Shown here: positions 1 to 13,905 of the stretch, in pieces
How positions within the stretch are numbered: the stretch's first letter is position 1
How the letters are laid out: every line of letters begins with the position of its first letter
Assembly: GCF_029952955.1 (NCBI RefSeq)
Contig: NZ_JASATX010000003.1
Location: 124,001-188,000 of the forward strand
Direction of reading: 5' to 3'
Source: Ruicaihuangia caeni
GTDB taxonomy: Bacteria; Actinomycetota; Actinomycetes; Actinomycetales; Microbacteriaceae
Length of the DNA stretch: 64,000 nucleotides
Position numbers and translations under genes: made by a program
The notes under the pieces: model-generated
The model's input: only the letters and a program-made list of their open reading frames with translations
The model's database searches: none
Told to the model about the DNA's origin: nothing

Positions 1-1076
1 AGTTGGGCCCGAGGACCATTGGCATGGACAGCGACCTGCAGCCCGGCTTCGGCGGCGCGCAGAAGCGTGTCGCGCAAGTACTCCTCATCGAGGGCGATAT
101 GGCCGTGATTATGCGGTTCGCCGACGTACGCGGTGTCGAGCGCCGCGTTCTTCGCCGAGTACCCGCCGTCGGAGAAGAGCTTGAGCCCGCGCACGCCGAA
201 CCCCTCATGCGCGCCCGTCACACCGAGCGCCCTCCGCCAGTCGAGCGCGTCATCGAGCGGCAGCGTGCCGGGCACCCACAGATAGGTGCGCACGTTCACG
301 GGGTTCTCGTTGCGCGCGGCGAGCGATTCCATCGCACGCAGCCCGGCATGGGTCTCCGAGATCTCGCCGATCGTCGTCACGCCATTGGCAGCGAACAGCT
401 CGCGGAACCCGCCGCGCAGGGCGTCTTCGATCTCATCGTCGGCGGGGCCGGTCACCGGCATGAGCGAGTCCATCTCCTTGACCACACCGGTCGGCTCACC
501 CCGCTCATCACGCTCGACGACGGGTTTGCCGCTCAGGCTGCCCGCCGGCTCTCGGTACTCGCGATCGATGCCGAGCTCGGCCAGCGCGGCCGAGTTGAGC
601 GCGGATATGTGCCCGCCTGCGCGCACGGCGATGGGCACCGTCGCACTGACCCGGTCGAGTTCGGCGCGGGTCGGCAGCCGGCCGTCGCGCAACTTGCGGT
701 CGAGGAAGAGGTTGCCCTGCCCGACTACCCACCCCTCCCGACGCTCGGCGACCGCATTCGAGAGCCGGGCGAGCACGTCCTCGACAGTCGCACAGTGGGG
801 CGCTCTGCAGTCCACGGTGCCCCACGCGGCTCGCACGGCCACTTCGCCGTGGGCGTGCACGTCGATGAATCCCGGCATGATGGTGCGGTCGCCGAAGTCG
901 GTGACCGGGATGCCCGCGGCTTGAGCAGCGGCTACCTCCTCGCGCGTCACATACCCGGCGATCGATCCGCCGTCAGTGCGGATGCCGATGGCGCCGGCGG
1001 GTGCCTCGGCGTCCATGCTCCGAATAGTGCCGGCAACCCAGACCGCCTCACGTGAGACGACAGCGGACTCAGACAC
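1..1076 (-). CDS. Amidohydrolase family 3 (YtcJ-like), C-terminus outside window
   Basis: Metal-dependent hydrolase of the amidohydrolase superfamily, expected to cleave a C-N bond of an amide or imidate in the cytoplasm; the substrate is not known. About 358 codons are present and the frame stays open to the left edge, so the protein is partial. After an N-terminal beta-sandwich stretch the metal site FIDVHAHGE lies at about residues 70-78; KLFSDGG (near 297) and VAVHAN (near 350) fit the later active-site strands. The GTG start at 1076 overlaps the monooxygenase stop by 8 bases, so the two genes are translationally coupled. An oxygenase followed by an amidase-type hydrolase suggests stepwise degradation of a nitrogenous compound (inference). 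Confidence 0.85.
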   Translation of the reverse strand, partial: MSESAVVSREAVWVAGTIRSMDAEAPAGAIGIRTDGGSIAGYVTREEVAAAQAAGIPVTDFGDRTIMPGFIDVHAHGEVAVRAAWGTVDCRAPHCATVEDVLARLSNAVAERREGWVVGQGNLFLDRKLRDGRLPTRAELDRVSATVPIAVRAGGHISALNSAALAELGIDREYREPAGSLSGKPVVERDERGEPTGVVKEMDSLMPVTGPADDEIEDALRGGFRELFAANGVTTIGEISETHAGLRAMESLAARNENPVNVRTYLWVPGTLPLDDALDWRRALGVTGAHEGFGVRGLKLFSDGGYSAKNAALDTAYVGEPHNHGHIALDEEYLRDTLLRAAEAGLQVAVHANGPRAQ

Positions 1077-2148
1077 GCGCGAGCCCCGCATCCTGCCGCT
1101 CTACGACCGGAATGACTTCAGCCCCGATCAGACGGAGTGAGTCCATGATCGCCTCGTGTCCCATGCCGTCGATGCGCAGGAGCACCTCGTCGACGCCCAT
1201 CGACTCGAGCCGCTGGAGCCGCTCAATGAAGTCGTCGGGCGTGCCGACCATGACGGACGGGCTCGTCTTGCACAGCCACTCGAGATCATCGCGGTGCTCG
1301 ATGAGCGCCTTGATCTCTTCGAGGTAGCCGTAACCGGGGTTGTCGGCGAGTGGAATGTAGAGGTCAAGGATGAACTCGAAGTAGTGCCGCACCACATCGC
1401 CCGCGATCTCAAGGGCCTGTTGCCGAGTCGGCGCGCAGAACGCGGAAGCGACGTAGAGGCCCGAGTAGTCGTTGGGTGCCAGTACGGCGCTGTGATCGCT
1501 TGAGCCGAACGATTCCCGATATGCGTCGAGGCACTCCTGCAGGTAGGGGAAACCGAAGTAGTTCTCGAAGGTGATCACGCCGATGCCACGCTTTCCGGCG
1601 TTGTGGTGCGACTCGACACTCGATGCAGCGACTGAGACCGGCGGATGCGGCAGGGTCACTGGTGTCGGCATGATCTGCCGCTTCGGAAAGCTCCAGACCG
1701 GCCCTTCGTGCTCGACCTCGGGCTGGCTGATGGCCTTCATGAGCAGATCCATCGAGTCGTCCCACTGCGCACGTGTTTCCTTGGGGTCGACTCCGAAGGC
1801 CTTGAGTGTCGGGATGTTGTTGGACCGCGCGGTGCAGATCTCTGCACGTCCATTCGAGACGATGTCGAGAGTGGCGAGGCGCTCGGCGACCAGCACCGGA
1901 TGGTTCCATTTGAGCATCACCGAGGCCATCGTGCGCAGCTTGATGCTGCTGGTCTGCGCCGCGATCGCCGAGTACAGCACCTCTGGCGCCGCGACCGAGA
2001 AATGCGGCGGGCTGAAGTGCTGTTCCGAAGTTCCCCAAGTTGAGAACCCGAGTTCGTCGGCGAGCTTCACCTCCTTGATCATCTGGTGGTACCGCTCCGC
2101 AACGGTAGTGCCGACAAGGTCGCCTTCCTGAAGGAGTCCTACGCGCAT
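1069..2148 (-). CDS. LLM-class (luciferase-like) flavin-dependent monooxygenase
   Basis: A 359-residue flavin monooxygenase of the bacterial luciferase superfamily, which uses reduced FMN and O2 to oxidise organic substrates. It opens MRVGLLQEGDL and carries GTSEQHF at residues 39-45, the position of the family's conserved E-H-(H)-F; the TIM-barrel pattern of the family runs through SVMLKWNHPV and the C-terminal VDEVLLRI. An in-frame start farther upstream is possible, but the ATG at 2148 is preceded by AAAGGACAG and begins at the domain boundary. It needs FMNH2 from a partner; a flavin reductase of the right type lies at 5300. It is divergent from the double Lrp regulator at 2235 and leads into the amidohydrolase. 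Confidence 0.9.
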   Translation of the reverse strand: MRVGLLQEGDLVGTTVAERYHQMIKEVKLADELGFSTWGTSEQHFSPPHFSVAAPEVLYSAIAAQTSSIKLRTMASVMLKWNHPVLVAERLATLDIVSNGRAEICTARSNNIPTLKAFGVDPKETRAQWDDSMDLLMKAISQPEVEHEGPVWSFPKRQIMPTPVTLPHPPVSVAASSVESHHNAGKRGIGVITFENYFGFPYLQECLDAYRESFGSSDHSAVLAPNDYSGLYVASAFCAPTRQQALEIAGDVVRHYFEFILDLYIPLADNPGYGYLEEIKALIEHRDDLEWLCKTSPSVMVGTPDDFIERLQRLESMGVDEVLLRIDGMGHEAIMDSLRLIGAEVIPVVERQDAGLARV

Positions 2149-2234
2149 GTCGCTGTCCTTTCTGTGTGATCCGGAATGGGCCGGGGCATCCGCGCCTCGG
2201 CAGCGGCCGGTCCGCTGATTGGTAAGTTCTTCGC

Positions 2235-3239
2235 GTGAGCGAAGACGTGAGCCAGGCATTCGACGCAGAGTCGCGCAGTAGTAGCGCGGCGATCGCCGAC
2301 CCCATCGACCTGGCGCTGATCCGAGAGCTTCAAGCGAACGGGCGCGCGACCTACGCCGAACTCGCTGCGGCGGCGGGCGTGACCGAGAAGACCGCGCATC
2401 GTCGAGTGGGCCGCCTGATCGCAGATGAGGTGGTTCGCATTGCGGCCGTGACTGATCCGGCCGTGCTGGGCTATACGGCGGCCGCGCTGCTCGGCATCCG
2501 CCTCACGCCTGGAAGCCGAGCAGCCGACTTGGTGGAGCGTCTCAAGAGTCTCGAGCGCGTCGACTACATCGTGACCACCTCGGGCCGGTTCCCGGTGCAG
2601 GTCGAAGTCGTCTGTCGAGACGAGTCGGAACTCGCAGCGCTCGTCGATGACACGATCCGGGTGATGCCGGGGGTGCGTGACATCGACTTGCTGCCGTACT
2701 TGCGTCTTCATTACCAGCAAGCCCGCTTCCATGCAGGTGAATTGACGCGTCTCAGCGGCGTCCGGCCCCGCGCCCTCGACGACCTCGACCGCAATATCGT
2801 CGAACAGTTCGCTCTCAACGGCCGCGCGGCGTTCGTGGAGGTCGCCGCACGGATCGGCGTGTCTCAGGTGAAGCTGCGGCAGCGATTCCAGCGCCTCATC
2901 GACTCGAACACGATGAAGGTGATGGCGATCGTCAACCCGCTGCAGCTTGGGCTCTCGGCAGTGGCCTGGGTCGAGATCAAGGTCGATCAAGGTCACCGGG
3001 TCGAGGAGATCGCCGAGACGCTCACTACGCAGCCAAGCGTGTCGTACCTCGCGCTCACCTTCGGACGCTGCGACATCCTTGTCGAGGTAGTGTGCGCCGA
3101 CAAGGAGGAGTTGAACGTCTTGCTCAACGAAAGGCTTCGGTTCGTCCCCGGTGTCGGCGAGTTCACGGTGTCGCAGTATTTCGATCTCGTCTACAAGCCG
3201 CTGCTGCCGCCTCAACCGGCGACACCGGTCACGCGATAG
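2235..3239 (+). CDS. Lrp/AsnC regulator with two complete tandem modules
   Basis: A 334-residue transcription factor about twice the usual Lrp size. Two HTH-plus-RAM modules follow each other: HTH one at about residues 24-66 (with AELAAAAGVTEKTAHRRVGRL), ligand domain to about 170, then HTH two at about 182-224 (EVAARIGVSQVKLRQRFQRL) and a second ligand domain ending near 320. The GTG start at 2235 follows a TAAGTT -10 box by 6 bases, so a leaderless transcript is likely. It is divergent from the monooxygenase-amidohydrolase operon and faces the aldehyde dehydrogenase, so it probably senses a pathway metabolite (inference). Confidence 0.9.
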   Translation: MSEDVSQAFDAESRSSSAAIADPIDLALIRELQANGRATYAELAAAAGVTEKTAHRRVGRLIADEVVRIAAVTDPAVLGYTAAALLGIRLTPGSRAADLVERLKSLERVDYIVTTSGRFPVQVEVVCRDESELAALVDDTIRVMPGVRDIDLLPYLRLHYQQARFHAGELTRLSGVRPRALDDLDRNIVEQFALNGRAAFVEVAARIGVSQVKLRQRFQRLIDSNTMKVMAIVNPLQLGLSAVAWVEIKVDQGHRVEEIAETLTTQPSVSYLALTFGRCDILVEVVCADKEELNVLLNERLRFVPGVGEFTVSQYFDLVYKPLLPPQPATPVTR

Positions 3240-3251
3240 CCGACGCACGAG

Positions 3252-4748
3252 TCAGCCCACCCAGACGGTCTTCGTCTCGAGGAACTTCTCCACCGCGTCG
3301 GGCCCGCAGTCGCGCCCAAGCCCGGACTGCTTCGATCCCCCCCAAGGCGCATTGGCAGCCCAGTCGGCGTAGGTGTTCACCCATACACGGCCGACCTCGA
3401 GCCTGTCGGCGATCGAGTGCACGCGCGTGACATCGGAGGTCCAGAGCCCGGCAGTGAGTCCGTAGCGCGAAGCGTTGGCGCGGGCGATCAAGTCATCATC
3501 GTCGTCAAAGGTCTGCACGATGAGCACTGGTCCGAAGATCTCGTCCGTGGTGACTGCTTCAGCATCCGTCGGATCCAGCACGATCGTCGGGTCGTAGAAG
3601 AACCCGCCGTCGCGCGAGCTGATGCCTCCACGAGTGATCGACGCGGCACCCCTGCGCGCTTGCTCCACATACGAGTTGACCTTGTCTCGGTGCTGAGCCG
3701 ATACGAGCGGCCCCATAGTGCTCGCGCTGTCAAGACTCGGTCCGACGACGATCGCGTCGGTGTATTGGTGGATGACATCGAGCACGTCGTCGCGCACGTC
3801 GCGGTGCACCAGCACCCTTGACCCGGCGAAGCACACTTGCCCCGAGTAGAAGAATGCGGTCACGGCCGCGGCCGTCGCCGCCTTCTGCACATCAGCATCA
3901 GGGAAGATGATGTTCGGGTTCTTCCCACCGAGCTCCAGCGAGATCGGCTTCAGCGCAGCGCCCGCTTCGGCTGCGAGTTGCCGACCGACGCGATCTGAGC
4001 CGGTGAAGGTGATACCCCGAACAAGCGGGTGCGAGGTCAGCGCCGCCCCGGTGGTCTCCCCCCGCCCGGTGACGACGCTCACAACGCCTTCGGGAACGCC
4101 CGCTTCGACCGCGAGTTCCGCCAGGCGCAGAGTCGAGAGCGAAGTGAGTTCGCTCGGTTTGATCACGACTGCGTTCCCCGCGGCGAGCGCCGGCGCGATC
4201 TTGATCGCTGCTTGGCACAGCGGGAAGTTCCATGGCGTGATGGCCGCAACGACGCCGAGCGGATCCTTCTTCGTATAGACCAGGTGATCGGCCGACGCTA
4301 CTGGAACCACGCTTCCGAGGATCTTCGTTGGCCAACCCGCGTAGTAGCGGAACTGCTCGACAGCGAGCGCCACATCGACGGCCTCGACATAGCCGACGGG
4401 CTTCCCGCTTTCGAGCGCGTCGTACTGCGCGAGCTCTGTCGCGTGCTGCTCCATGAGGTCAGCGAGGCGGTGCAGCACACGCTCGCGTTCGAATGGCGAG
4501 AACCGCTTCCACGACCCAGTAAACGCGTCGTGTGCATGGCGCACGGTGCGGTCGACCTCTTCGGCGTTCGTCTCGGCGACGTGCACAAGCAGTTGACCGG
4601 TCGCGGGATCGAGCGAGGCAATCCGCTCACCCTTTGCCGCCCGCGACTCGACCTCGGCGATGAATGCCTCGACCTCGGGCAGCGCGCCGGGCTGCGTGCG
4701 CCTCTGCTCGAAAGCGTGCTCCTGAACGTCTGAACTCGTGATGGTCAC
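3252..4748 (-). CDS. NAD(P)-dependent aldehyde dehydrogenase
   Basis: A 498-residue ALDH-superfamily enzyme that oxidises an aldehyde to the carboxylate. All hallmarks are present: PWNF at 172-175, KPSE at 198-201, the cofactor loop FTGSDRVG at 248-255, general base Glu272 in LELGG, and nucleophile Cys306 in GQVCFAGSR. The start is GTG at 4748 with AGAGGA six bases upstream. It converges on the Lrp gene, leaving only 12 bases between stops, and diverges from the EthD gene across a regulated-looking 170-base promoter region. The exact aldehyde cannot be inferred. Confidence 0.93.
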   Translation of the reverse strand: MTITSSDVQEHAFEQRRTQPGALPEVEAFIAEVESRAAKGERIASLDPATGQLLVHVAETNAEEVDRTVRHAHDAFTGSWKRFSPFERERVLHRLADLMEQHATELAQYDALESGKPVGYVEAVDVALAVEQFRYYAGWPTKILGSVVPVASADHLVYTKKDPLGVVAAITPWNFPLCQAAIKIAPALAAGNAVVIKPSELTSLSTLRLAELAVEAGVPEGVVSVVTGRGETTGAALTSHPLVRGITFTGSDRVGRQLAAEAGAALKPISLELGGKNPNIIFPDADVQKAATAAAVTAFFYSGQVCFAGSRVLVHRDVRDDVLDVIHQYTDAIVVGPSLDSASTMGPLVSAQHRDKVNSYVEQARRGAASITRGGISSRDGGFFYDPTIVLDPTDAEAVTTDEIFGPVLIVQTFDDDDDLIARANASRYGLTAGLWTSDVTRVHSIADRLEVGRVWVNTYADWAANAPWGGSKQSGLGRDCGPDAVEKFLETKTVWVG

Positions 4749-4810
4749 GGCTCGTCCTCTCGTCTTTGAGTACCGACGTGAGACAGCAAATCACTGATTC
4801 CTGTCCCACA

Positions 4811-4884
4811 CAAGCCGATTTGGATAGATTTAGGTACTTGACTTTAGTGAAATGTCGTTTTTATGGTTCATGCAAGCCGAATTG
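4811..4884. promoter_or_regulatory. Divergent control region with promoter and a 12-bp direct repeat
   Basis: Between the aldehyde dehydrogenase (minus) and the EthD gene (plus) there is a plus-strand promoter: TTGACT at 4838-4843, 18 bases, then TATGGT at 4862-4867. It is bracketed by two direct repeats, CAAGCCGATTTG (4811-4822) and CAAGCCGAATTG (4873-4884), 11 of 12 identical and 62 bp apart start to start. The DNA is AT-rich compared with its surroundings. The repeat spacing, close to six helical turns, suits a regulator that wraps or loops DNA such as an Lrp protein; the regulator at 2235 is the obvious candidate (inference). Confidence 0.55.
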
Positions 4885-4919
4885 CCGGCCGACCCCTCCC
4901 CTGAACGAGAGGAGACGCG

Positions 4920-5252
4920 ATGTACGACGTCTTCGCCATCTATGACCACCCGAGCGACCCTGAGGCGTTCAATGCGCACTACGAGCGCGTGCACGCACCC
5001 CTGACGCGCCGGATGCCGGGCCTGCTCGAGTTCGAGTGGGGCGTCGCGGCGCCAGGTTCGAGTGTCCATGTGATCGCTCGTATGACCTTCGCCGACGAGG
5101 CGAGCGCTGATGCGGGGCTCACCTCACCGGAGGGCACCGCGGCGGTCGAAGACCTGCAGAACTTCGCGGCAGCAGGCGTGACTGTCATCCGCGCACCTCG
5201 GGCACTTGGCACAGCCGTCCTCGGCGTCGAGCCTGCCGACGCGTCCCGGTGA
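4920..5252 (+). CDS. EthD-type small alpha/beta-barrel protein
   Basis: A 110-residue protein of the EthD family, a dimeric alpha+beta barrel fold found beside monooxygenases in degradation pathways. It opens MYDVFAIYDHPSDPEAFNAHY and has the typical H-x-P-L/M-x-P-G region (VHAPLTRRMPGLLEFEWG). A strong Shine-Dalgarno, GAGAGGAG, lies five bases before the ATG. The next reading frame begins just past its stop, and the two genes probably form one transcript with the flavin reductase. EthD proteins are often required but have no settled enzymatic role. Confidence 0.82.
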   Translation: MYDVFAIYDHPSDPEAFNAHYERVHAPLTRRMPGLLEFEWGVAAPGSSVHVIARMTFADEASADAGLTSPEGTAAVEDLQNFAAAGVTVIRAPRALGTAVLGVEPADASR

Positions 5253-5299
5253 CGCGGCAGCAAGCAACGCGATCAGCAGCAAACCCAGTGAGGAACCAC

Positions 5300-5833
5300 A
5301 TGAACACCACTGCAATCGGCCACACCCGGCGCAAGGACAGCGCGGCACGGACGCCTGAGAAGCACGACGAACTCATCGCCATCGTGAAGGCGGCAAACCG
5401 CAGCCTCCCTACCGGAGTGTCCGTGGTCACAGGGCGCGACGCCGAACGACCGGTCGGCCTGGTCGTCAATGCTTACTCGAGCGTCTCACTGGAACCAGCC
5501 AGCGTGCTCGTCTGCGTCAACCGTTCGTCATCGAGCCACGATTACTTGCACGCGAGCCCCTTCATCGCGGTGAATTTCCTCGCCCACGACCAAGAGGAGA
5601 TCGCTAGGCGCTTCGCCGTATCGGGCGGCGACAAGTTCGCAGACCTTGACTGGCACCCCGGCGTGAATGGATCGCCGCTGCTCGCCGGCACATCCGCGCA
5701 CTTCGAGATCGAAGTGGATGAACGCCTGGCCGCCCACACGCACACGATCTTCATCGGTCGCATCGTTGATGCGATGACGCATGGCAGCGAGCCGTTGCTG
5801 TACAAGGATGGTCGGTTCCACGACATCTTCTGA
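5300..5833 (+). CDS. Flavin reductase (HpaC/DIM6-type NAD(P)H:FMN oxidoreductase)
   Basis: A 177-residue flavin-reductase-like protein that supplies reduced flavin to a partner oxygenase. Family features are LPTGVSVVTGRDAERPVGLVVNAYSSVSLEPASVLVCVN near the N-terminus, HASPFIAVNFLA mid-protein and the C-terminal HTIFIGRIVDA...PLLYKDGRFHDIF. The ATG at 5300 has GAGGAACC upstream; an in-frame start at 5249 would overlap the EthD stop and is less likely. The most plausible client is the LLM monooxygenase at 1069-2148, making a two-component system split over two divergent transcripts (inference). Confidence 0.9.
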   Translation: MNTTAIGHTRRKDSAARTPEKHDELIAIVKAANRSLPTGVSVVTGRDAERPVGLVVNAYSSVSLEPASVLVCVNRSSSSHDYLHASPFIAVNFLAHDQEEIARRFAVSGGDKFADLDWHPGVNGSPLLAGTSAHFEIEVDERLAAHTHTIFIGRIVDAMTHGSEPLLYKDGRFHDIF

Positions 5834-5997
5834 TCGACCTGCACCAACGCAACGACGGCGGCTCCCCTTCCGGCTCCTTTCGAGGGGCGCCGCCGTCGGA
5901 CCGATGTGTCAGAAACGTGACAGTGAACGAGCGATGACCTGTGCCAGCAGGCGCGCTGAGGCACGAGACCGCCTCCACGTAGAGGGTCGCGGCTCGG

Positions 5998-6432
5998 TCA
6001 GTCGAGCGGGAGGGGTGCGTTCGCGCTGTCGAGATGCTCGACGGTGGTGAAGATGAGGTCTTCGTCGCCGATGTTCTGGATGTCGTGGAGCAGGAACTCT
6101 CCCTCTCCGAACGAGTAGTGCCGTGTCTCCCCCTGCGGGTACTCCACGATCCGCGTCGTGCCGTCGGCGGTGTGCTGCAGGCTCTTCCCTGCGGTGACGG
6201 CGGTCCAGAAGTAGTCGAGCACATGGCGGTGCACGTGCCACCGCTGCCCAGGTGCGAGGTGGATCTCCCACACCCGCACGCGCTCGTTCTGACTCAACAG
6301 CCGTGAACCCACGTGGCCGTCGAACTCATAGCGCTCGAAGTCGGCCTTGACCTCGTCGGACCAGCCTTCGAAGTTCTCGGCGACGAGTTCTCCTGCGAGG
6401 GCGATGTCACTCGGGAGGTTGCTCGAGATCAT
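5998..6432 (-). CDS. Cupin-fold protein
   Basis: A 144-residue single cupin domain. The metal-binding motif one region reads PGQRWHVHRHVLDYFW, the YPQGETRHYSFGEGEF segment forms the middle, and motif two is weak (LLHDIQNIGDEDLIF) with one recognisable histidine. It could be a metal-dependent isomerase or dioxygenase, or a sensor of a pathway intermediate. Its ATG overlaps the TGA of the NIPSNAP-type gene by four bases (ATGA at 6429-6432), so it is translated second in that pair. Function is not assignable. Confidence 0.8.
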   Translation of the reverse strand: MISSNLPSDIALAGELVAENFEGWSDEVKADFERYEFDGHVGSRLLSQNERVRVWEIHLAPGQRWHVHRHVLDYFWTAVTAGKSLQHTADGTTRIVEYPQGETRHYSFGEGEFLLHDIQNIGDEDLIFTTVEHLDSANAPLPLD

Positions 6433-6761
6433 GCGCCCTGGTCCTCCATCTGCTTCACCGGGAGCTCCTCGAGCACACGCACTTCAAGCGACTCGACGAA
6501 CTTGCCCCGCACGTCGCCGAGCGCCACACGAGGGGGGTTCGAGAAGAACTCGTTCTCCTGCCGCTCGACGCTGTCGGCCGATTCGAACTGCCGGATCCAC
6601 ACGAACTCGTCGGGGTCCGCGGTGTTCCGCGAGGCGAAGGGCACCGGGATGCCGACCTCGTGGTGCAGCGGCACGAGCTTGTCGTGGAACAGCTCCAGCC
6701 ACTCGTCCATCAGTCCTTGCCGTATGCGATAGATCCGCAATTGGGAGACCAGGGCCATCGC
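6429..6761 (-). CDS. NIPSNAP-type dimeric alpha/beta-barrel protein
   Basis: A 110-residue NIPSNAP-family-like protein: LRIYRIRQGLMDEWLELFHDKLVPLHHEVGIPV is the classic opening, followed by FVWIRQFESADSVERQENEFF. The start at 6761 is preferred because GAAGGAG sits eight bases before it. It belongs to the same fold superclass as EthD, so this locus carries two such small barrel proteins. It heads a two-gene transcript with the cupin and diverges from the racemase-like gene. Confidence 0.78.
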   Translation of the reverse strand, partial: AMALVSQLRIYRIRQGLMDEWLELFHDKLVPLHHEVGIPVPFASRNTADPDEFVWIRQFESADSVERQENEFFSNPPRVALGDVRGKFVESLEVRVLEELPVKQMEDQGA

Positions 6762-6813
6762 GAACAACTCCTTCGTCGTCAATCAGCGCCGGGGTTCATG
6801 CCCGGTGAACTAG

Positions 6814-6829
6814 TGTATTCAGAATAACA
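6814..6829. promoter_or_regulatory. Near-perfect palindrome TGTATTC-A-GAATAACA, likely operator
   Basis: Positions 6814-6829 read TGTATTCAGAATAACA; apart from one extra A the two arms are exact complements around a central A. It lies between the divergent NIPSNAP-type (6761) and racemase-like (6844) starts, just where promoters of both should be. The protein that binds it is unknown; GntR-family sites have this general shape. Confidence 0.45.
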
Positions 6830-6843
6830 GGTCATCAGAGGAG

Positions 6844-7578
6844 ATGAGTACTTTGCTCGAGGAAGAGAATCGCCCGGACTCCCCGTCGGAGAACCAACAG
6901 GCACCGTACGCCGCGCCCTACGAAGGGAAGCGAATCGCGTTCGTCCACACCCTGGGGGCGCTGGCGCCCGTGTTCGATCAACTGGTCGCTGAGCACCTCC
7001 CCGGGGCAGTTGCGACCCATGTCGTCGACGACGGCTTCTACGAGGCCGAGTTCGCGGCGGGCGCCCTCGACGAGACGGAGCAGCGCCGCTTGGTCGAACA
7101 TCTCAACGATGGCGAGGCTGCCGAAGCCGACATCTCAGTGGTGACGTGCTCGTTCCTCGGCACCTACGTCGACGAGCTCGCCCATGAGGCGAATGGCTCG
7201 TGGCTGCGCATCGACCTCGCGATGGCGGAAGCCGCCTTGGCGATCGGCGACCGCATCGGTGTACTCGCGACTGCGGAATCGTCGTACCGGTCGACGGTGC
7301 AGTTGCTGGAGCGCCTCGCCAGCGAAGCGGCACGCGAGGTGCAGCTCAGCGCACACCTGGTCGAAGGCGCGTTCGCCGCGTTGGAGCGCGGCGACCTCGA
7401 CACCCACAACTCGGCGGTCGCGGATGCGATCGCGTCGGTGCAGGGCGAGGTCGATGTCATCGTGCTGTCGCAGGCTTCGATGGCCCAGGCGATCGCGACC
7501 ATGACCGAGCAGCCGACCGTGCCCGTGCTGACGAGCCCAGTGCTGTGCTTCAAGCGGCTGCGCGAGGTGCTCGCGTAG
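6844..7578 (+). CDS. Aspartate/glutamate-racemase-superfamily enzyme, atypical active site
   Basis: A protein of up to 244 residues with the Asp/Glu/hydantoin racemase fold: nucleotide-like opening KRIAFVHTLGALAPVF, first catalytic loop VVTCSFLG with Cys102, and the second loop IVLSQASM at 206-213. Family racemases place a second cysteine in that loop (LGCTG), but here the equivalent residue is Gln210, so a two-base racemisation is unlikely and a lyase, decarboxylase or isomerase role is possible. The Shine-Dalgarno AGAGGAG abuts the ATG directly; TTG at 6853 (codon 4) has ideal spacing and may be the true start. It converges on the TRAP operon across a strong terminator. Confidence 0.8.
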   Translation: MSTLLEEENRPDSPSENQQAPYAAPYEGKRIAFVHTLGALAPVFDQLVAEHLPGAVATHVVDDGFYEAEFAAGALDETEQRRLVEHLNDGEAAEADISVVTCSFLGTYVDELAHEANGSWLRIDLAMAEAALAIGDRIGVLATAESSYRSTVQLLERLASEAAREVQLSAHLVEGAFAALERGDLDTHNSAVADAIASVQGEVDVIVLSQASMAQAIATMTEQPTVPVLTSPVLCFKRLREVLA

Positions 7579-7594
7579 AGCACTCTCGCACAAG

Positions 7595-7643
7595 CAAGAG
7601 GGGCGGATGCCGCGGTTCGAAGCCGCGGCATCCGCCCCTCTTG
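7595..7643. terminator. Bidirectional terminator with perfect 21-bp stem
   Basis: Left arm 7595-7615 and right arm 7623-7643 are exact inverse complements with a 7-base loop TTCGAAG. The right arm ends CTCTTGTG, giving a modest T-rich tail, and the left arm mirrors this. It sits between the convergent racemase-like and TRAP permease genes. Both arms contain the GGATGCC/GGCATCC word that recurs in the window. Confidence 0.88.
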
Positions 7644-7657
7644 TGTATCGACTCGCG

Positions 7658-8932
7658 TCAGAACCCGAGCAGGCCGGGTAGCCACGTCGTCAGAGCCGGC
7701 ACCGCAGTCACCAAGGCGAGCACCCCCAGAAGCGGGAAATAGAAGGGCACTACGCCCTTGATGATCCGTTTGACCGGGATATTCGTCACGTTCGACAGCA
7801 CGAAGAGCACGAGTCCGACCGGCGGCGTCAGGAGGCCCAGCATGAGGTTGAACACGATGATCATGCCGAACTGCATCGGGTCGATCTGCATCACCATCGC
7901 AACAGGCCACAGCACGGGCACCAGGATCAGGATCGCCGCGACGGGATCGATCAGCGCACCGATGAACAGCAGCAGGATGTTCACGAGGATCAAGAACACG
8001 ATCGGGTCGGTCGTGAACGAAGTGATCAGCTCCGCTGCCTTCTGCGGTGCCTGCTCACGGGCGAGAATCCAGCCGAACAGCGCGGCAGGCGCCACGATGA
8101 GCAGCACCGCGCCGACGGTCTCGACTGTTGTCGTGAGGATCGCCTTGATGTTGCCCCAGCCCAGCTGCTTGTACAGCAGCGCGAGGACCAGCATGTAGGC
8201 GACGCCCGCTGCTGCCGCCTCCGTGGGCGTGACGATGCCGCCCAGGATGCCACCGAGGATGATCACACCCGCGCCGAGCGCCGGGATCCCGCTGGCCGCC
8301 GTGCGAACGCGCTCCCCCATCGGCGTGCGGGGCAGCCGCAGGTCTTCGCGCTTGCGGGCGTAGACCCACACGCACAGGCACAGCACGGCCACGAGCAGCA
8401 GGCCCGGCACGATCGCAGCGATGAACAGCGAACCGACCGAGATGCTCGCGGTGACGGCAAGGATGATCGCAGGAATGCTGGGAGGGATGATCGGTGCGAT
8501 CAGGGCGGCGGATGCCGTCACGCCCACCGTGAAGCCCTCGGAGTACCCGCGGCGCACCATGGCCGGCACCTGCACCTTGCCCAGGGCAGCGGCGTCGCCA
8601 AGCGCTGCACCACTCATCCACGCGAACGCGAAGCTGGTGAACACGTTGACGTAGCCCAGGCTGCCTCGAACGCGACCGAAGACGGCCGTGGCGGCCTCGA
8701 ACAGTCGGTCGGCGATTCCGGTGATGTTGACCACGTTGCCGAGGAGGATGAACAGCGGCACCGCGAGCAGCGGGAAGCTGTTGACTCCGGCGATCGTCTG
8801 CTGCACCAGCACATTGATCGCGGTGCGTCCCTCGATCGTGAAGTAGATGAGCGAGGGCATGAGCAGCGAGAAGGCCACTGGAACTCGCAAGAAGAGCAGG
8901 ACGACGAGAACGCCCACCATCATCAGCAACAT
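7658..8932 (-). CDS. TRAP transporter large permease (DctM type)
   Basis: A 424-residue membrane protein with about twelve hydrophobic segments, the large channel subunit of a tripartite ATP-independent periplasmic-type transporter for carboxylates. Recognisable DctM segments include LFLRVPVAFSLLMPSLIYF, the PLFILLGN motif, and SAALIAPIIPPSIPAIILAV. It begins one base after the small-permease stop (TGA-C-ATG), so the two are coupled. It ends the five-gene operon 12611 to 7658. Confidence 0.95.
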   Translation of the reverse strand: MLLMMVGVLVVLLFLRVPVAFSLLMPSLIYFTIEGRTAINVLVQQTIAGVNSFPLLAVPLFILLGNVVNITGIADRLFEAATAVFGRVRGSLGYVNVFTSFAFAWMSGAALGDAAALGKVQVPAMVRRGYSEGFTVGVTASAALIAPIIPPSIPAIILAVTASISVGSLFIAAIVPGLLLVAVLCLCVWVYARKREDLRLPRTPMGERVRTAASGIPALGAGVIILGGILGGIVTPTEAAAAGVAYMLVLALLYKQLGWGNIKAILTTTVETVGAVLLIVAPAALFGWILAREQAPQKAAELITSFTTDPIVFLILVNILLLFIGALIDPVAAILILVPVLWPVAMVMQIDPMQFGMIIVFNLMLGLLTPPVGLVLFVLSNVTNIPVKRIIKGVVPFYFPLLGVLALVTAVPALTTWLPGLLGF

Positions 8933-8933
8933 G

Positions 8934-9515
8934 TCAGGCTCCCACTCGGCTCAGGTCGACGTCGTCCTCGAACTGCTTCGGGTACTTCAGCGCAAGCACG
9001 ATGTTCACGACGGCGTGCGCGGCCATGAGCAGGTACGAGACGACGCAGATCGAGTACACGATGCTCATCGGCAGCCCGGTCACCGGGCCGTTGAGTCGTC
9101 CGGATGCGCCGACCAGAGCGATCGACCCGTAGGCCATCACTGCGCAGCCCGCGATGACGATGACGCTCGCGAGTGCCTCCGCGATCGAGACCGCGCGCGC
9201 GCCGATGCGCTTGGAGCCGAACAGCACGACACTGATGTGACGGCGTCGGGCCATGACGAACGTCGCTGAAGCGAACACCAGCCAGATGAAGAGGAACCGC
9301 GAGAGTTCCTCCGACCACGGCAGCGGCGAGTTCAGCACGTAACGGCTGAACACCTGGATGAGGATCAGGAAGAATACCGCCACCATCAGCACGCAGCTGA
9401 CGATGACCTCGGCGCGCACGAGGGCACCGTAGGCGCGGGATCTCGTCTCGGGGTAGAAGGGGCTCCCCGGATCGAGCGCTTCCTGAGGGGCGTCGCCCTC
9501 GTAATCGAGTGTCAT
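8934..9515 (-). CDS. TRAP transporter small permease (DctQ type)
   Basis: A 193-residue protein with four predicted membrane segments; the DctQ signature FSRYVLNSPLPWSEELSRFLFIWLVFASA is intact. ATG 9515 is preceded by GAAGGAG with good spacing, better than the upstream in-frame start. It bridges the extracytoplasmic binding protein and the large permease. A 99-base gap separates it from the SDR gene upstream. Confidence 0.93.
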   Translation of the reverse strand: MTLDYEGDAPQEALDPGSPFYPETRSRAYGALVRAEVIVSCVLMVAVFFLILIQVFSRYVLNSPLPWSEELSRFLFIWLVFASATFVMARRRHISVVLFGSKRIGARAVSIAEALASVIVIAGCAVMAYGSIALVGASGRLNGPVTGLPMSIVYSICVVSYLLMAAHAVVNIVLALKYPKQFEDDVDLSRVGA

Positions 9516-9614
9516 CGCGCTACTCCTTCGTATGTCGCGGGGTCGGGATGCTTCATTGGGGTCTCGTGATGCTGCTGGCAAGACCCGCTCGCAGCATCGG
9601 CTGAGTTAGGTCGG

Positions 9615-10370
9615 TCAGGCCATCACGATTCCGCCGTTGACGTCGAGCGTCGCGCCGGTGATGAACGACGCGTCGTCCGAGAGCAGGAATCGCACTGCAG
9701 CGGCGATATCGGCAGGGTCTGCGAGCCGCCCCAACGGAATCGCCTCGCGAATCGCCTCGAGCCGCTCGGGCCCCTCCAACTCGCGCAGCCGCGGCCCATC
9801 GACCGGGCCGGGAGCGACAGCATTGGCGCGGATGCCGTGACGTGCTCCGTCCCGAGCCGTGTGCCGCGTGAGCCCGAGCAACCCTGCCTTCGCCGCGGTG
9901 TATTCCGCGCCGAGCGACGTCGCGGTCGAGCGGGCGGCATTCGACGCGATGTTCACGATCGCACCGCCTCCGCCCGCGATCATGCTCGGCATCGCCGCCT
10001 TGGTGGTCAGGAACGCGGCCTTGAGGTTGGAGTCGACGACGGCATCCCAGTCGCCTTCCGTGATCTCGTGCACTTCCTTGACGGCCACATATCGGCCGGC
10101 ACAGTTCACGAGCTCGGTGACCGGTCCAAGTTCGCCGACGAGGTCGGCGAACGCCGTGTCGACGGCGGCGGCATCCGTGAGGTCCACCGTGAACGCGCGC
10201 ACCGGGGCGGTGGCGACGCTGGCGAGTTCCTCGCGGAGTCGTTCGATCGCCGACCGGTTCAGGTCGAGGAGCGCGACGGCTCGCCCAGCGGCGGCGAGCG
10301 ACCGGGCGACTGCGTCGCCGATGCCGCTCGCCGCGCCGGTCACAATCGCGAAGCGGTGCTCACGCTGCAT
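9615..10370 (-). CDS. SDR-family oxidoreductase
   Basis: A 251-residue classical short-chain dehydrogenase: cofactor motif TGAASGIG at 11-18, acidic DLNRS after beta-2, NCAG at 89-92 (usual NNAG with Asn to Cys), catalytic Ser143 and Y157-x3-K161, and the C-terminal FITGATLDVNGG. The start overlaps the stop of the zinc dehydrogenase by 11 bases. Paired with a zinc alcohol dehydrogenase and a TRAP importer, it probably oxidises a sugar acid or polyol acid in two steps (inference, as in idonate or gulonate routes). Confidence 0.9.
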   Translation of the reverse strand: MQREHRFAIVTGAASGIGDAVARSLAAAGRAVALLDLNRSAIERLREELASVATAPVRAFTVDLTDAAAVDTAFADLVGELGPVTELVNCAGRYVAVKEVHEITEGDWDAVVDSNLKAAFLTTKAAMPSMIAGGGGAIVNIASNAARSTATSLGAEYTAAKAGLLGLTRHTARDGARHGIRANAVAPGPVDGPRLRELEGPERLEAIREAIPLGRLADPADIAAAVRFLLSDDASFITGATLDVNGGIVMA

Positions 10371-11397
10371 GCTGCACTACGACCTTGCCGGGCACCGAGC
10401 CGGCGTCGCCGAGAATCGTCGGGATCTCGTCAAGCCGCGCCTCGAGCCCCACGAACTGCTGCAGATCGAGCTTGCCGCTGCGAACGAGCTCATCGACGCG
10501 ATCCCAGCTCGACCAGATGTGCCGGCCGAAGGTGCCCTTCCAGTTGATGACTCGCAGATTCACGTCGCGCGAGATGTTCACGGGGATGGGCTGGCTGGTG
10601 TGGCCGATCGACACCAGGGTCGACTCCTTGCCGAGCGTGTCGAAGAGCGTCTCGTACGCCGACGGCGCTCCGGACACTTCGAATGCGAGGTCGGCGCCGG
10701 CGATGACGCCGCGCTCTCTGGCGAGAGCGATGAAGTCGTCCTTCTCACGGAGGTCGAACGCCGTCGCCCCGAGCTGCTCAGCCATGGTGCGGCGCGACTC
10801 CCCCGGTTCGAGCACGAGCACGTCGCCCGCTCCTTGCGCCTTGAGCATTGCGATCAGGAAGAGCCCGACCGGTCCCGCACCGCTGACCGCTACGACCTTG
10901 CCGTCGACATCGCCGGCGCGCTGTGTGGCGTGCATGGCGACTCCGGCCGCTTCGTAGAGCGCCGCGTGCTCGGGCGAGACGCCTGGCGCCACGCGATACA
11001 GAGCGCGCTCGGGGATGACGGCGTATTCGGCCCAGATGCCGTCCCGGCTGACGCCGGGGATCTGCATGTTCAGGCAGTTGTGGGCCGCGTCGTTGCGGCA
11101 GGCGACGCACTCGCCGCAGAAGATGTGGGTCTCGACGACGACGAGCTGCCCCTCAGGGATGTCGACGTCGTCCGCTGCGTCGACGACGAAGCCGGAGCAC
11201 TCGTGGCCGAGCACCATCGGAAGCGGGGAGCCCCAGGTGGCCGAGTGCCGCGGCCAGTCGAACGCCAGGCCGAGGTCGGTTCCGCAGATCGACGATGCAG
11301 CGACCTTGATGACGACCTCGCCCGGGCCGGCCGTCGGCTTCGGCACGTCGCCCGTCGATACTCCGGGGCTCGGGTCGGTCTTGGTGATGGCGAACAA
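10360..11397 (-). CDS. Zinc-dependent alcohol dehydrogenase (MDR family)
   Basis: A 345-residue medium-chain dehydrogenase. Catalytic zinc ligands are in SSICGTDLG and GHECSGFV; the structural zinc lobe has the four-cysteine set CGECVACRNDAAHNC; the Rossmann motif is VSGAGPVGLF. The start is TTG at 11397, chosen because AAGGAG lies six bases upstream and the domain begins there; a longer in-frame extension has no homology-like features. It sits between the binding protein and the SDR in the TRAP operon, so its substrate should be the imported compound. Confidence 0.92.
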   Translation of the reverse strand: MFAITKTDPSPGVSTGDVPKPTAGPGEVVIKVAASSICGTDLGLAFDWPRHSATWGSPLPMVLGHECSGFVVDAADDVDIPEGQLVVVETHIFCGECVACRNDAAHNCLNMQIPGVSRDGIWAEYAVIPERALYRVAPGVSPEHAALYEAAGVAMHATQRAGDVDGKVVAVSGAGPVGLFLIAMLKAQGAGDVLVLEPGESRRTMAEQLGATAFDLREKDDFIALARERGVIAGADLAFEVSGAPSAYETLFDTLGKESTLVSIGHTSQPIPVNISRDVNLRVINWKGTFGRHIWSSWDRVDELVRSGKLDLQQFVGLEARLDEIPTILGDAGSVPGKVVVQHAA

Positions 11398-11564
11398 CGG
11401 TGTCTCCTTGCGAATGGGTACTGCGGTGCGCGAGAGCGCGCTCTGTCTGAAGAACGCTCGTGCGTCTGACGCGGCGGTCGATGAGGCCGGGCCAGAGCCG
11501 AGCGAAAGATGAGGGGCCGTGCCCGCCGAACGGATGCCGGCGGGCACGGCTGCGACGGATGCCG

Positions 11565-12611
11565 CTACTTCTGCGACTCGATGATCGCGTTGTAGATGTC
11601 GATCGAGAAGCCGGAGTTGGCTGCCGCCCACTTCTCGGCGCTGCCCTTGGTCGCCTCACGGATCGACTTGAGGTCGGGGCGGGTGACGGTCATGCCGTGC
11701 TCGCTCTCGAGGCGCTCGAGCGCAGCGGCGTTCTCTTCGAGGGCGAGTTGCGACTGGTGCTCTCCGGCATCCTTGATCGCGGTCTCGATGAGTTCACGGT
11801 CTTCATCGCTGAGGCGCTGCCAGAACGCCTCCGAGAAGAGGGCGACCTCACCCTGAGTGAGGTGACCGGTGACCGCGAGGTACTTCTGCACCTCGAAGAA
11901 CTTGCCGGACTCGATGGTGCTGAAGGGGTTCTCCTGCCCGTCGACGGCTCCGGTCTGCAGCGCAAGATACAGCTCGCTGAAGGCCATGGGCGAGGGCGAG
12001 GCGCCGAGGTCTTCGATCGCCAAGAAGTGGATCGGGGCGTCGGGAGTGCGCAGCTTCATGCCCTTGAGATCGTCGACCGACTCGATCGGGCGAACCGAGT
12101 TGGTGATGTGGCGGTTGCCGTACCACCAGGTCCAGTCGACGGCGCGCATGCCGTACTCCGCAGCCATGTCCTCGGTCATCTGCTCGACCTCGTCGATCTG
12201 GGCGACCTTCTTGAGGTTCTCGTACTGCTCCTCCTCCGAGTCCCCGTCGATGAGGTAGGGCATCGACCAGACGGCCGCGTTCGGCGCGACGTTCGACATC
12301 ACGGCTGGCGACACGAGCGCCACCTCGAGCGAGTCTGCCTGCACCTGCGCGATCGTGTCGAGCTCGTTTCCGAGCTGCGCCGAGGGGTAGACCGATACGG
12401 TGATGCGTCCGTCGGAGCGCTCCTCGACGAGCTCCTTGAACTTCAGCGCGCCTTCCTGCAGCGGTGTATCAGGAGCGATCTGGTGCGCCACGCGGATGTC
12501 GAACGAGGGCGCGTCGCCGCTGTCGCCGTCGCTCTTCCCGCCTTCCGAGGCGGCACAACCGGTGAGGGCGAGCGCTGAGGCGAGCCCGAGCGCGATGACC
12601 GTTTTCTTCAC
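11565..12611 (-). CDS. TRAP transporter substrate-binding lipoprotein (DctP type)
   Basis: A 348-residue extracytoplasmic solute receptor. The signal peptide VKKTVIALGLASALALTGC ends in lipobox LTGC, so it is anchored to the membrane as suits a Gram-positive TRAP system. DctP features include IRVAHQIAPDTPLQEGALKFKELVEERSDG in two parts and the carboxylate-binding arginine region KLRTPDAP followed by ALQTGAVDGQENP. GTG 12611 follows AGAGG. It is the first gene of the operon, 167 bases before the dehydrogenase. Confidence 0.94.
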   Translation of the reverse strand: MKKTVIALGLASALALTGCAASEGGKSDGDSGDAPSFDIRVAHQIAPDTPLQEGALKFKELVEERSDGRITVSVYPSAQLGNELDTIAQVQADSLEVALVSPAVMSNVAPNAAVWSMPYLIDGDSEEEQYENLKKVAQIDEVEQMTEDMAAEYGMRAVDWTWWYGNRHITNSVRPIESVDDLKGMKLRTPDAPIHFLAIEDLGASPSPMAFSELYLALQTGAVDGQENPFSTIESGKFFEVQKYLAVTGHLTQGEVALFSEAFWQRLSDEDRELIETAIKDAGEHQSQLALEENAAALERLESEHGMTVTRPDLKSIREATKGSAEKWAAANSGFSIDIYNAIIESQK

Positions 12612-12700
12612 ATTGACCTCTTTGTCTCTTCGATGCGGAGACCGGCTCCCCATCCCGGTCGCGGTTGACCAGGTCCTCTGAGGATCCGATGCTGTGATCC

Positions 12701-12734
12701 ACATATGTATAGCGGTAGTGTGGTGACACCGCAA
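12701..12734 (-). promoter_or_regulatory. Promoter and candidate operator of the TRAP operon
   Basis: On the minus strand TTGCGG (12734-12729), 17 bases, then TATACA (12711-12706) form a good promoter about 90 bases before dctP. The 8-bp palindrome ACATATGT (12701-12708) overlaps the -10 box, an ideal repressor position. The divergent GntR/FCD gene at 12851 is the likely binder (inference). Confidence 0.55.
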
Positions 12735-12850
12735 GCCGTCGGGCTCGAAAACTTGCCGCGACCCACGACGTGCGGCGTGGTCGGTCGTGGTGAGAGGATC
12801 AGCGAGGCGACGCGTCAGCGGAGACGAACGCGATGAAGGAGGAGGCGACG

Positions 12851-13564
12851 ATGACCTCGCAGGCCCTACTGGAGCCGATCCCAGGACCGATGAGCGTGTC
12901 GACGCATGTACTGCGCGGCCTGCTCTCGTCGATCGTCGACGGCAAGCTGAAGACCGGCGAGCAACTGCCTTCCGAGGCCGAGATCGCGCAGCAGATGGGC
13001 GTGGGTCTCTCTTCGGTGCGCGAAGCACTGTCGGCGCTGCAAGGCATGGGGGTCATCTCGGTGAAGCACGGTTCAGGACGAACCGTGCGCGGGCTCACCT
13101 TTGCCGCGATCGCCGACCCCCGCGTCAGCGACACCGTTGTCAACGGTCAGCTGCTGCTGCAGACGACCGCAGTGCGCGAGCTGCTCGAGGTCGCGGCGAT
13201 CCGTCACGCGGCAAGTGAGGCCACGAGTTCCGACCTCGCCGAGATCGAGCGGGCCGTGGCCGAGATGGATGCCGCGGTTCACCGCGGCGAACTCGGTGTG
13301 GAGGAGGACGGCGAGTTCCACCTGGCGATCGCCCGCACCACGGGCAATGTCGTGCTCGTGCTGCTGCAGGAGTCGATCAACTCGTTGATGAACAGCATCC
13401 GGCGCAAGAGTCATCAGCAGGAGGGACGGCCGCAGATGGCCGTCGACGAACACCGCGCCATTGCCGAAGCGATCCGCAACGGCGATGTCGAGAACGCGGA
13501 ACGCCTGCTCAGAGAGCACCTCGCGCGGGGTGCTTCCGACGCCGGCACCTACTTCAAGGACTGA
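12851..13564 (+). CDS. GntR-family regulator, FadR/FCD subfamily
   Basis: A 237-residue regulator: winged HTH at about residues 15-80 (EQLPSEAEIAQQMGVGLSSVREAL, GVISVKHGSGR in two parts) and an FCD ligand domain with the metal-site pattern ELLEVAAIRHA...EFHLAIARTTGN...DEHRAIAEAI. ATG 12851 is preferred over 12833 because GAAGGAGGAG stands before it. FCD regulators usually bind a carboxylate and are released from DNA by it, which fits control of the divergent TRAP operon. Confidence 0.93.
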   Translation: MTSQALLEPIPGPMSVSTHVLRGLLSSIVDGKLKTGEQLPSEAEIAQQMGVGLSSVREALSALQGMGVISVKHGSGRTVRGLTFAAIADPRVSDTVVNGQLLLQTTAVRELLEVAAIRHAASEATSSDLAEIERAVAEMDAAVHRGELGVEEDGEFHLAIARTTGNVVLVLLQESINSLMNSIRRKSHQQEGRPQMAVDEHRAIAEAIRNGDVENAERLLREHLARGASDAGTYFKD

Positions 13565-13644
13565 GCCGCAGCCACGGCTTGGAGCGACTCCGACGCTGCT
13601 CGTCGACGGCGATTCCAGCGCTGGTGCGCGCCTGACGAGCCGGT

Positions 13645-13905
13645 CTAGGCGGAGGCTTCCGCTGCGGCCAGCGCAGCCCGAAGCCGCTCGCGGTCGACGC
13701 GCCAGATGTTGTGCACCCGATCATCGATCATGACGACCGGGATCTCCTCCGAGTACCGATCGAACAGTTCGGGCTCCTGAAGGATGTCGCGTTCCTCGAG
13801 CTGCACCGCGGGGAACTCCGAGAGCACCTCCGTCACGACCTCGCGGGCGTCATCGCAGAGATGGCAGCCCGGCTTGCCGATCAACGTCACGCGCACAGAA
13901 GACAC
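13645..13905 (-). CDS. Glutaredoxin-family thiol protein
   Basis: An 86-residue thioredoxin-fold protein with the redox motif GCHLCDDA near the N-terminus and the cis-proline region EIPVVMIDDRV. The GTG start at 13905 is supported by a TACGCT -10 box (13917-13912) exactly six bases upstream, predicting a leaderless mRNA. It is likely a cytosolic disulfide reductase of the DUF836/glutaredoxin-like type common in Actinobacteria. Confidence 0.88.
   Translation of the reverse strand: MSSVRVTLIGKPGCHLCDDAREVVTEVLSEFPAVQLEERDILQEPELFDRYSEEIPVVMIDDRVHNIWRVDRERLRAALAAAEASA

Follow-up and report, generated by a model that had tools for sequence, protein, structure and literature searches.

A recurrent luciferase-like monooxygenase gene set in a genomic island of Ruicaihuangia caeni: candidate N-heterocycle catabolism beside a TRAP-linked module

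Do the catabolic genes gathered at one end of a 64,000-nucleotide stretch of the Ruicaihuangia caeni genome form a single pathway, and which compound would they degrade? The stretch, referred to here as the window, covers positions 124001-188000 of contig C4 (NZ_JASATX010000003.1) in a 2.67-Mb assembly. Its first 13.6 kb encode a luciferase-like monooxygenase (LLM), a flavin reductase, an aldehyde dehydrogenase (ALDH), an amidohydrolase, several small proteins, an enzyme of the Asp/Glu-racemase fold and a tripartite ATP-independent periplasmic (TRAP) importer with two dehydrogenases (Table 1). The genes are real, since each one named in a previous sequence-only reading is a long intact frame at or very near the place assigned to it, with coding-typical scores in a home-made measure of GC (guanine plus cytosine) content by codon position and with matches to protein families. 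It is somewhat probable that they fall into at least two modules, module 1 being a mobile pathway for a nitrogen (N) heterocycle and module 2 serving a small acid sugar or polyol acid. Gene intactness, co-conservation, the limits of the modules at the loci examined, the relatedness of the LLM to the p2MP and TpdA-like oxygenases, and the insertion of the island were computed directly.

Module 1 is defined by its recurrence. A pattern scan with the LLM through a collection of one genome per species (84,980 species), which finds close relatives only, gave 13 genome loci. The actinobacterial ones come from Arthrobacter, three Nocardioides (one a partial contig of a metagenome-assembled genome), Aeromicrobium, two Mycobacterium, Leucobacter and Paeniglutamicibacter, and the rest from two Hansschlegelia, Ancylobacter and Pseudochrobactrum. 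Two plasmid loci were added, on pLDW-10 of A. crystallopoietes (LLM 72% identical), a plasmid typed as conjugative, and on pYKAM101 (59%), a captured IncP-type soil plasmid; across this family the LLM is about 59-76% identical to that of the window. All 16 island proteins were compared with these 15 stretches by tblastn. A relative of the ALDH is present at every locus (48-64% identity), the double-Lrp regulator at 14 of the 15 (missing at L061) and the flavin reductase also at 14 (29-47%), the fifteenth, at L067, being recognized by clustering. The amidohydrolase was matched at 13 loci, both misses (L058 and L066) lying at contig ends, and a full-length NCS1 permease and an EthD-family protein at 12 each. 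Conversely, the cupin-like, NIPSNAP-like and racemase-fold proteins, DctM, DctQ, DctP and the zinc-dependent alcohol dehydrogenase (Zn-ADH) were matched in none of the 15 stretches, and generic matches concerned the short-chain dehydrogenase/reductase (SDR; 31% at L062, 41% at L065) and the GntR regulator (24% at L062). Gene order differs among the loci and gene content does not, the pattern expected when a functional set is reshuffled. The genes of the first 6 kb, together with the NCS1 permease, do co-occur at the 13 genome loci and on the two plasmids, which bears out the suggestion that a two-component flavin oxygenase serves peripheral catabolism here, or that two pathways lie side by side.

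Some copies of the module have neighbours of their own. On pYKAM101 (L069, LC623911.1, 17118-34143) it is flanked by two copies annotated ISPman1 (IS21), and because these stand on the same strand on both sides, the region looks like a composite transposon; in a table of PMC9499019 the accessory content of this plasmid is given merely as "Two ISs" (insertion sequences). On pLDW-10 (L068, NZ_CP018865.1, 224-10216) a second, parallel cluster adjoins module 1. It contains amidohydrolase, EthD-family, ALDH and flavin reductase genes homologous to those of the window, together with a BCCT carrier, a PucR regulator and an LLM of another kind (24%), and its substrate might be a betaine-like N-heterocycle, for instance trigonelline or homarine. 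Genes of riboflavin synthesis (DHBP synthase/RibBA) and genes for CobW-type or GTP-binding proteins lie near some module copies (L058:6552-7175, L061:3438-4451, L069:24586-26693), perhaps for flavin and metal supply.

In R. caeni the whole stretch behaves as one acquired island. Its flanks are a class II tRNA synthetase gene (PF00152) and a glutaredoxin-like gene (PF05768), both present in the congeners G001 and G002, where the matched flanks are 456 and 413 bp apart, against 15.9 kb here (L033:13738 to window 13668). The stretch is read as a single island because two congeners keep only a short interval between the same flanks; double loss in the congeners is less likely. Its GC content is slightly low (0.639-0.677 as compared to 0.645-0.707 around it, in 2-kb windows), and no integrase or transposase was found among its frames and family matches. 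In G001 the interval between the two flanking genes holds a Dabb-family gene (L125:1808-2104), and a similar-looking frame was picked out by eye at this position in G003, which belongs to another genus; there is no room for such a gene here, the gaps at the island ends being short (window about 13570-13645).

The island genes are rare among relatives. At E<=1e-50 the LLM was found in at least 1 of 297 genomes of the order, only its own among the candidates scored, and gene neighbourhoods within Microbacteriaceae, to which the sequence-only reading had looked for co-conservation, were uninformative. The cupin-like protein at E<=1e-8 occurs in 1 of the 297, again its own genome, and the Zn-ADH at E<=1e-60 in at least 3, its own included. 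At E<=1e-40 the LLM reaches at least 32 of 394 genomes of the class, and all matches listed apart from its own are only 30-35% identical. The LLM and Zn-ADH searches scored about five or six candidates per genome, so that their counts are lower bounds.

The likely chemistry of module 1 is judged from the kin of its oxygenase. The window LLM shares 38-39% identity with two others, that of plasmid p2MP and a TpdA-like LLM of Rhodococcus opacus 1CP, and these two share 33% with each other. In a 30-row tree, with a root for drawing only, the module 1 LLMs form a clade at 98/96, which the p2MP and Aminobacter LLMs join at 98/97, on long branches and with no true root. The p2MP record holds an LLM in two copies, a flavin reductase, an amidohydrolase (30% identical to that of the window over 530 amino acids) and two ALDHs annotated as succinic semialdehyde dehydrogenase (SSADH) within about 20 kb. 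Among the 45 plasmid records matching the LLM, nine neighbourhoods were viewed, and one of them, in Arthrobacter sulfonylureivorans, has TRAP genes close by. Distant clusters in Arthrobacter sulfonylureivorans and Pseudonocardia (LLM 35-36%) carry ALDH, flavin reductase and amidase genes, and the LLM cluster on a plasmid of Aminobacter MSH1 has an N-formylglutamate deformylase and a peptide deformylase, which fit an N-formyl product. The catalytic Cys of the ALDH is kept in all 17 aligned rows, and the metal-binding HxH, H, H and D motifs of the amidohydrolase are common to 14 close homologues (13 loci) and the p2MP protein.

By analogy, module 1 is probably a variant of LLM-based N-heterocycle ring cleavage, matching the pyridine route role for role. 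We infer each reaction, substrate and product, here and in module 2. The NCS1 permease would import a polar N-heteroaromatic compound. The flavin reductase would supply reduced flavin to the LLM, which would open the ring oxidatively beside the nitrogen, yielding an N-formyl (or N-acyl) enamine aldehyde. This aldehyde would be oxidized to the acid by the ALDH, and the amidohydrolase would remove the formyl group; the enamine may then break down into ammonia and a semialdehyde, which is probably succinic semialdehyde. A further dehydrogenase would feed the latter into the tricarboxylic acid cycle, and the double-Lrp protein is the presumed dedicated regulator. The nearest solved relative of the permease is the hydantoin permease Mhp1 (phmmer, E about 2e-6); a conserved NCS1 carrier of this kind argues for a polar substrate and so suggests a polar N-heterocycle. 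At 4 of the 15 loci (L055, L056, L061, L065) the module has a second ALDH nearby, which is SSADH-like; that of L056 is 51% identical to a p2MP ALDH.

A more specific proposal can be put forward only tentatively. Module 1 may be an undescribed mobile pathway, spread through Actinomycetota and Alphaproteobacteria, in which NCS1 imports a polar N-heteroaromatic such as a pyridine carboxylate or carboxamide and the LLM opens the ring directly, without a preceding hydroxylation by a molybdenum enzyme. No paper describing the gene set was among the matches listed in the CC0, CC BY and CC BY-SA literature, which is not proof of absence.

Several points weigh against ring cleavage of this kind. A full-length NCS1 gene was not found at L061, at L063 (a 98-amino-acid match, 33%) or at L066, where the contig stops within the LLM gene. 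Not all of the 15 loci count independently: match values are nearly equal for L059 and L066, and the LLMs of L055 and L068 are 92% identical. Identity to enzymes of known or reported substrate is low (38% for the LLM, 30% for the amidohydrolase), and LLM substrates vary widely at a distance of about 38% identity. The p2MP LLM is presumably PyrA, the pyridine ring-cleaving enzyme, while the annotation of the record does not name PyrA, and the long branches make the p2MP/Aminobacter part of the tree unsure. The p2MP stretch gave no tblastn match to the flavin reductase, NCS1, EthD-family or Lrp proteins of the window, and its ALDHs are 33 and 36% identical to the window ALDH, as compared to 42% in A. 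sulfonylureivorans and 44% in Pseudonocardia; p2MP need not be the best guide, because its ALDHs are less alike and several module genes are unmatched. The SSADH-like ALDHs have SSADH as their best models, all below curated cut-offs, and no second ALDH or SSADH was seen among the frames and family searches of the window's island.

The kinship with p2MP could also mean that module 1 is simply a divergent pyr cluster degrading unsubstituted pyridine by the known pathway. The same set of roles and the grouping of the LLM with that of p2MP speak for it. However, identities are only 38% (LLM) and 30% (amidohydrolase), and an NCS1 permease conserved at 12 of the 15 loci would be surprising if the substrate were pyridine, a base that diffuses freely, so that this explanation is held to be quite unlikely. 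In the sequence-only reading the genes matched no set known to its author. That is so in part only: they share their roles with the pyr pathway and their LLM groups with that of p2MP, whereas identities of just 38% and 30% mean that module 1 is not exactly the pyr pathway.

The LLM superfamily is functionally broad, and the window LLM scores below the cut-off of many NCBIfam LLM models and above none (best 25 of 26 shown). The enzyme might instead oxidize a sulfonate, a cyclic ketone (as a type II Baeyer-Villiger oxygenase), an alkylamine, a nucleobase or a hydantoin, with the ALDH and amidohydrolase acting on some other intermediate. Known substrates of NCS1 carriers include nucleobases and hydantoins, in keeping with Mhp1 as the nearest solved relative. 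On the other hand, the closest relatives of reported function, the p2MP and TpdA-like LLMs, reportedly open N-heteroaromatic rings, and the models for SsuD (29 bits), SfnG (44 bits) and the NtaA/DmoA type (31 bits, with a cut-off of 279.7) score low. Such a substrate is regarded as unlikely, and N-heterocycle ring cleavage is retained for module 1.

The remaining genes raise the question of whether the TRAP half belongs to the same pathway. Family searches find the TRAP set complete, with DctP, DctQ and DctM all in the island. Together with the SDR, the Zn-ADH, the GntR/FCD regulator and probably the racemase-fold enzyme, it would constitute module 2, acting on a small acid sugar or polyol acid. 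Around the racemase-fold relatives (the best 20 of 30 matches listed outside its own genome, from 17 genomes), a RuBisCO-like protein and a four-carbon acid sugar kinase are both encoded at 5 of the 20 loci. Others have an FGGY-type kinase, a DeoR regulator or a DeoC/LacD-type aldolase, and 2 of the 20 a Zn-ADH at about 30% identity. The window Zn-ADH itself has one plasmid relative at E<=1e-50 (40%), which adjoins genes for a RuBisCO-like protein and a four-carbon acid sugar kinase. The module 1 set is at none of the 20 loci, one of which has a 25%-identical LLM. Since some relatives of both enzymes occur with RuBisCO-like protein and kinase genes, the racemase-fold gene is tentatively placed with the TRAP/SDR/Zn-ADH/GntR half, in a putative acid-sugar or polyol-acid uptake and oxidation. 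The placement is weak because the gene lies tail to tail with DctM and because the island is without the other two genes: neither a RuBisCO-like protein nor a four-carbon acid sugar kinase gave a match in the island or the rest of the window at E<=1e-15. Membership of the racemase-fold gene in module 1 was dropped, there being no co-occurrence at the 20 loci.

The active site of this enzyme had been called altered. Canonical Asp/Glu/hydantoin racemases have two catalytic Cys residues. Here the first is kept and the second is Gln, which does not fit the canonical two-Cys type; the same pattern is found in 16 of 16 aligned homologues, so that the alteration exists and is the norm of the subfamily. 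In this one-Cys subfamily Cys, Ser and Gln are invariant (mostly LAQASM); it has matches in 23 of 149 relatives, its own genome included, and also on many plasmids of rhizobia. We know of no described function for it.

That all 16 genes, or most of them, belong to a single pathway acting on a single compound, and that the TRAP system imports this compound or an intermediate, is the reading to which the common island and its single insertion site lend support. A cluster on plasmid p1 of A. sulfonylureivorans (L085, 137-15997) points the same way and speaks against a strict split of the halves: it carries an LLM (36%), an ALDH (42%), a flavin reductase (37%), amidase and Rid-family genes, and within 10 kb of the LLM TRAP genes (DctM 30%, DctP 21%), an SDR (33%) and a NIPSNAP-family gene. 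On other plasmids, ALDH and FAD-binding-domain genes are found next to relatives of the cupin-like protein. Conversely, the cupin-like, NIPSNAP-like, racemase-fold, TRAP and Zn-ADH genes are at 0 of the 15 module 1 loci in the stretch examined, and none of the 20 racemase-fold loci has the module 1 set while 5 have the RuBisCO-like protein and the four-carbon acid sugar kinase. A single pathway is thus improbable, and the present sequence evidence favours at least two. The proposal of one system including the TRAP and racemase-fold genes finds no support at the 15 loci; at L085 the gene mix partly echoes the whole window island.

Plasmid neighbourhoods were viewed for 6 of 34 records with a cupin-like relative, 1 of 140 with a racemase-fold relative, 0 of 2 for the NIPSNAP-like protein and 1 of 1 for the Zn-ADH; two of the six cupin-like records are unannotated there and were read by our own gene finder or tblastn only. 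Cupin-like relatives 66-69% identical occur on Rhodococcus and Streptantibioticus plasmids. The Rhodococcus ones have an ALDH gene within about 4 kb, and in one annotated case an FAD-binding-domain gene stands directly before it. A urate-type cluster on a Methylobacterium radiotolerans plasmid (L079, 4157-12351), which encodes an FAD monooxygenase, UraD, UraH, a racemase-family protein and an NCS1 permease, also includes a cupin-like relative. None of the neighbourhoods viewed for the cupin-like, racemase-fold or Zn-ADH relatives joined both halves of the island.

Some of the labels first given to the small proteins hold in part. The reductase is a flavin reductase, and its description as HpaC-type is too narrow: FerA (107 bits), the p-hydroxyphenylacetate-hydroxylase reductase, HsaB, StyB, RutF and HpaC (73 bits) all match below cut-off, FerA higher than HpaC. 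The NIPSNAP-like protein scores 20.8 in Pfam against a cut-off of 22.3. The cupin-like protein has no Pfam or NCBIfam match at E<=0.001, its label resting on homologues annotated "cupin domain-containing" and on an HxH-type motif picked out by eye. The racemase-fold protein has no relative in the PDB at E<=0.01 (phmmer), and single-sequence AlphaFold models of it and of the cupin-like protein (mean predicted local distance difference test score 47 and 50, respectively) were too poor to use.

Table 1. Features of the island in window coordinates; negative numbers lie to the left of window base 1.
Feature	Position	Strand	Remarks
NCS1 permease	about -2197 to -764	same strand as amidohydrolase	PF02133, 112 bits; outside window
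Amidohydrolase (Amidohydro_3), 5' part	1..1091	-	PF07969; 552 amino acids in all, crosses left window edge
LLM flavin monooxygenase, predicted N-heterocycle ring-opening	1069..2148	-	PF00296; start taken at 2148
Double Lrp/AsnC regulator, divergent from LLM gene	2235..3239	+	two HTH_AsnC and two AsnC_trans_reg stretches
ALDH, StyD/BADH-like (below curated cut-offs shown), predicted for ring-cleavage aldehyde	3252..4748	-	PF00171
EthD-family small barrel protein	4920..5252	+	TIGR02118, 71.6 bits vs cut-off 30.5
Flavin reductase, predicted LLM partner	5249..5833	+	PF01613
Cupin-like protein, accessory, outside conserved set	5998..6432	-	homologues only, without family match
NIPSNAP-like small protein, accessory	6429..6782	-	PF07978 below cut-off
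Asp/Glu-racemase-fold enzyme, one-Cys/LAQASM subfamily, tentatively acid-sugar half	6844..7578	+	PF01177
TRAP large permease DctM	7658..8932	-	TIGR00786 above cut-off, PF06808
TRAP small permease DctQ	8934..9581	-	PF04290
SDR dehydrogenase	9615..10370	-	PF13561/PF00106
Zn-ADH, threonine dehydrogenase-like (below cut-off)	10360..11421	-	start approximate
TRAP solute-binding protein DctP	11565..12611	-	TIGR00787 above cut-off, PF03480; start is GTG before signal peptide
GntR/FCD regulator, divergent from TRAP operon	12833..13564	+	PF00392, PF07729
In-window part of 15.9-kb genomic island	1..13668	.	remainder outside window

To our knowledge, few cases of direct flavin-driven opening of N-heteroaromatic rings have been described genetically, namely those of pyridine, tetramethylpyrazine and trigonelline. 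The seven-gene set, found in two phyla and on plasmids with its own importer and regulator, may represent a new branch of this chemistry and supplies marker genes for it, and its separation from the TRAP half guards against a misleading assignment.

Among known systems, module 2 is compared with clusters of a RuBisCO-like protein and a four-carbon acid sugar kinase, which we take to belong to isoapionate-type acid-sugar catabolism. The likeness lies in the plasmid relative of the Zn-ADH and the 5 of 20 racemase-fold loci that sit with these two genes, whereas the window island has a match to neither. For module 1 the Rut pyrimidine pathway was rejected: the NtaA/DmoA model gives 31 bits against 279.7, the LLM models shown (25 of 26) include none for RutA, and no RutB-E-type genes are among the island family matches.

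The tpdABC operon for tetramethylpyrazine in Rhodococcus jostii TMP1 begins, according to a passage of PMC6099782, with a gene for a putative flavin monooxygenase. Module 1 resembles it in having a flavin oxygenase with a predicted N-heterocyclic substrate; the R. opacus 1CP LLM is 39% identical, and the 1CP cluster also has a cytosine permease. It differs in that two TpdA-like plasmid clusters carry TpdB or a gene in the TpdB position, an amidase-family protein and a LuxR-type regulator, with no match to the window ALDH or amidohydrolase; in 1CP tpdB is annotated beside the LLM. The tpd system was rejected for the window, where the LLM gene is flanked by the amidohydrolase and Lrp genes and no TpdB is among the island family matches.

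The ring of trigonelline is opened by TgnA/TgnB, as a passage of PMC8269262 states. Module 1 in the window differs in being without an N-methyl or betaine transporter. After ring opening, the trigonelline route is said to proceed through the TgnC ALDH, the TgnD hydrolase and amide hydrolysis to succinic semialdehyde, and the likeness to module 1 is one of roles: flavin-dependent ring opening, aldehyde oxidation, amide hydrolysis and succinic semialdehyde.

A further comparison is with the pyr set on p2MP of Arthrobacter sp. 68b, reportedly made up of PyrA (LLM), PyrE (flavin reductase), PyrB (ALDH), PyrC (amidohydrolase) and PyrD (SSADH). PyrA/PyrE are said to open pyridine to an N-formyl enamine aldehyde, (Z)-N-(4-oxobut-1-enyl)formamide, which PyrB reportedly oxidizes; PyrC would then hydrolyze the amide and PyrD oxidize succinic semialdehyde. 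Module 1 differs in identity (LLM 38%, amidohydrolase 30%), in gene order and in the lack of an SSADH in the window island, and it has three further components that are unmatched in the p2MP stretch, namely a double-Lrp regulator, a conserved NCS1 permease and an EthD-family protein. Both systems bring together in one stretch an LLM, a flavin reductase, an ALDH and an amidohydrolase as their four core roles, and their LLMs group in the tree, on long branches and with no true root.

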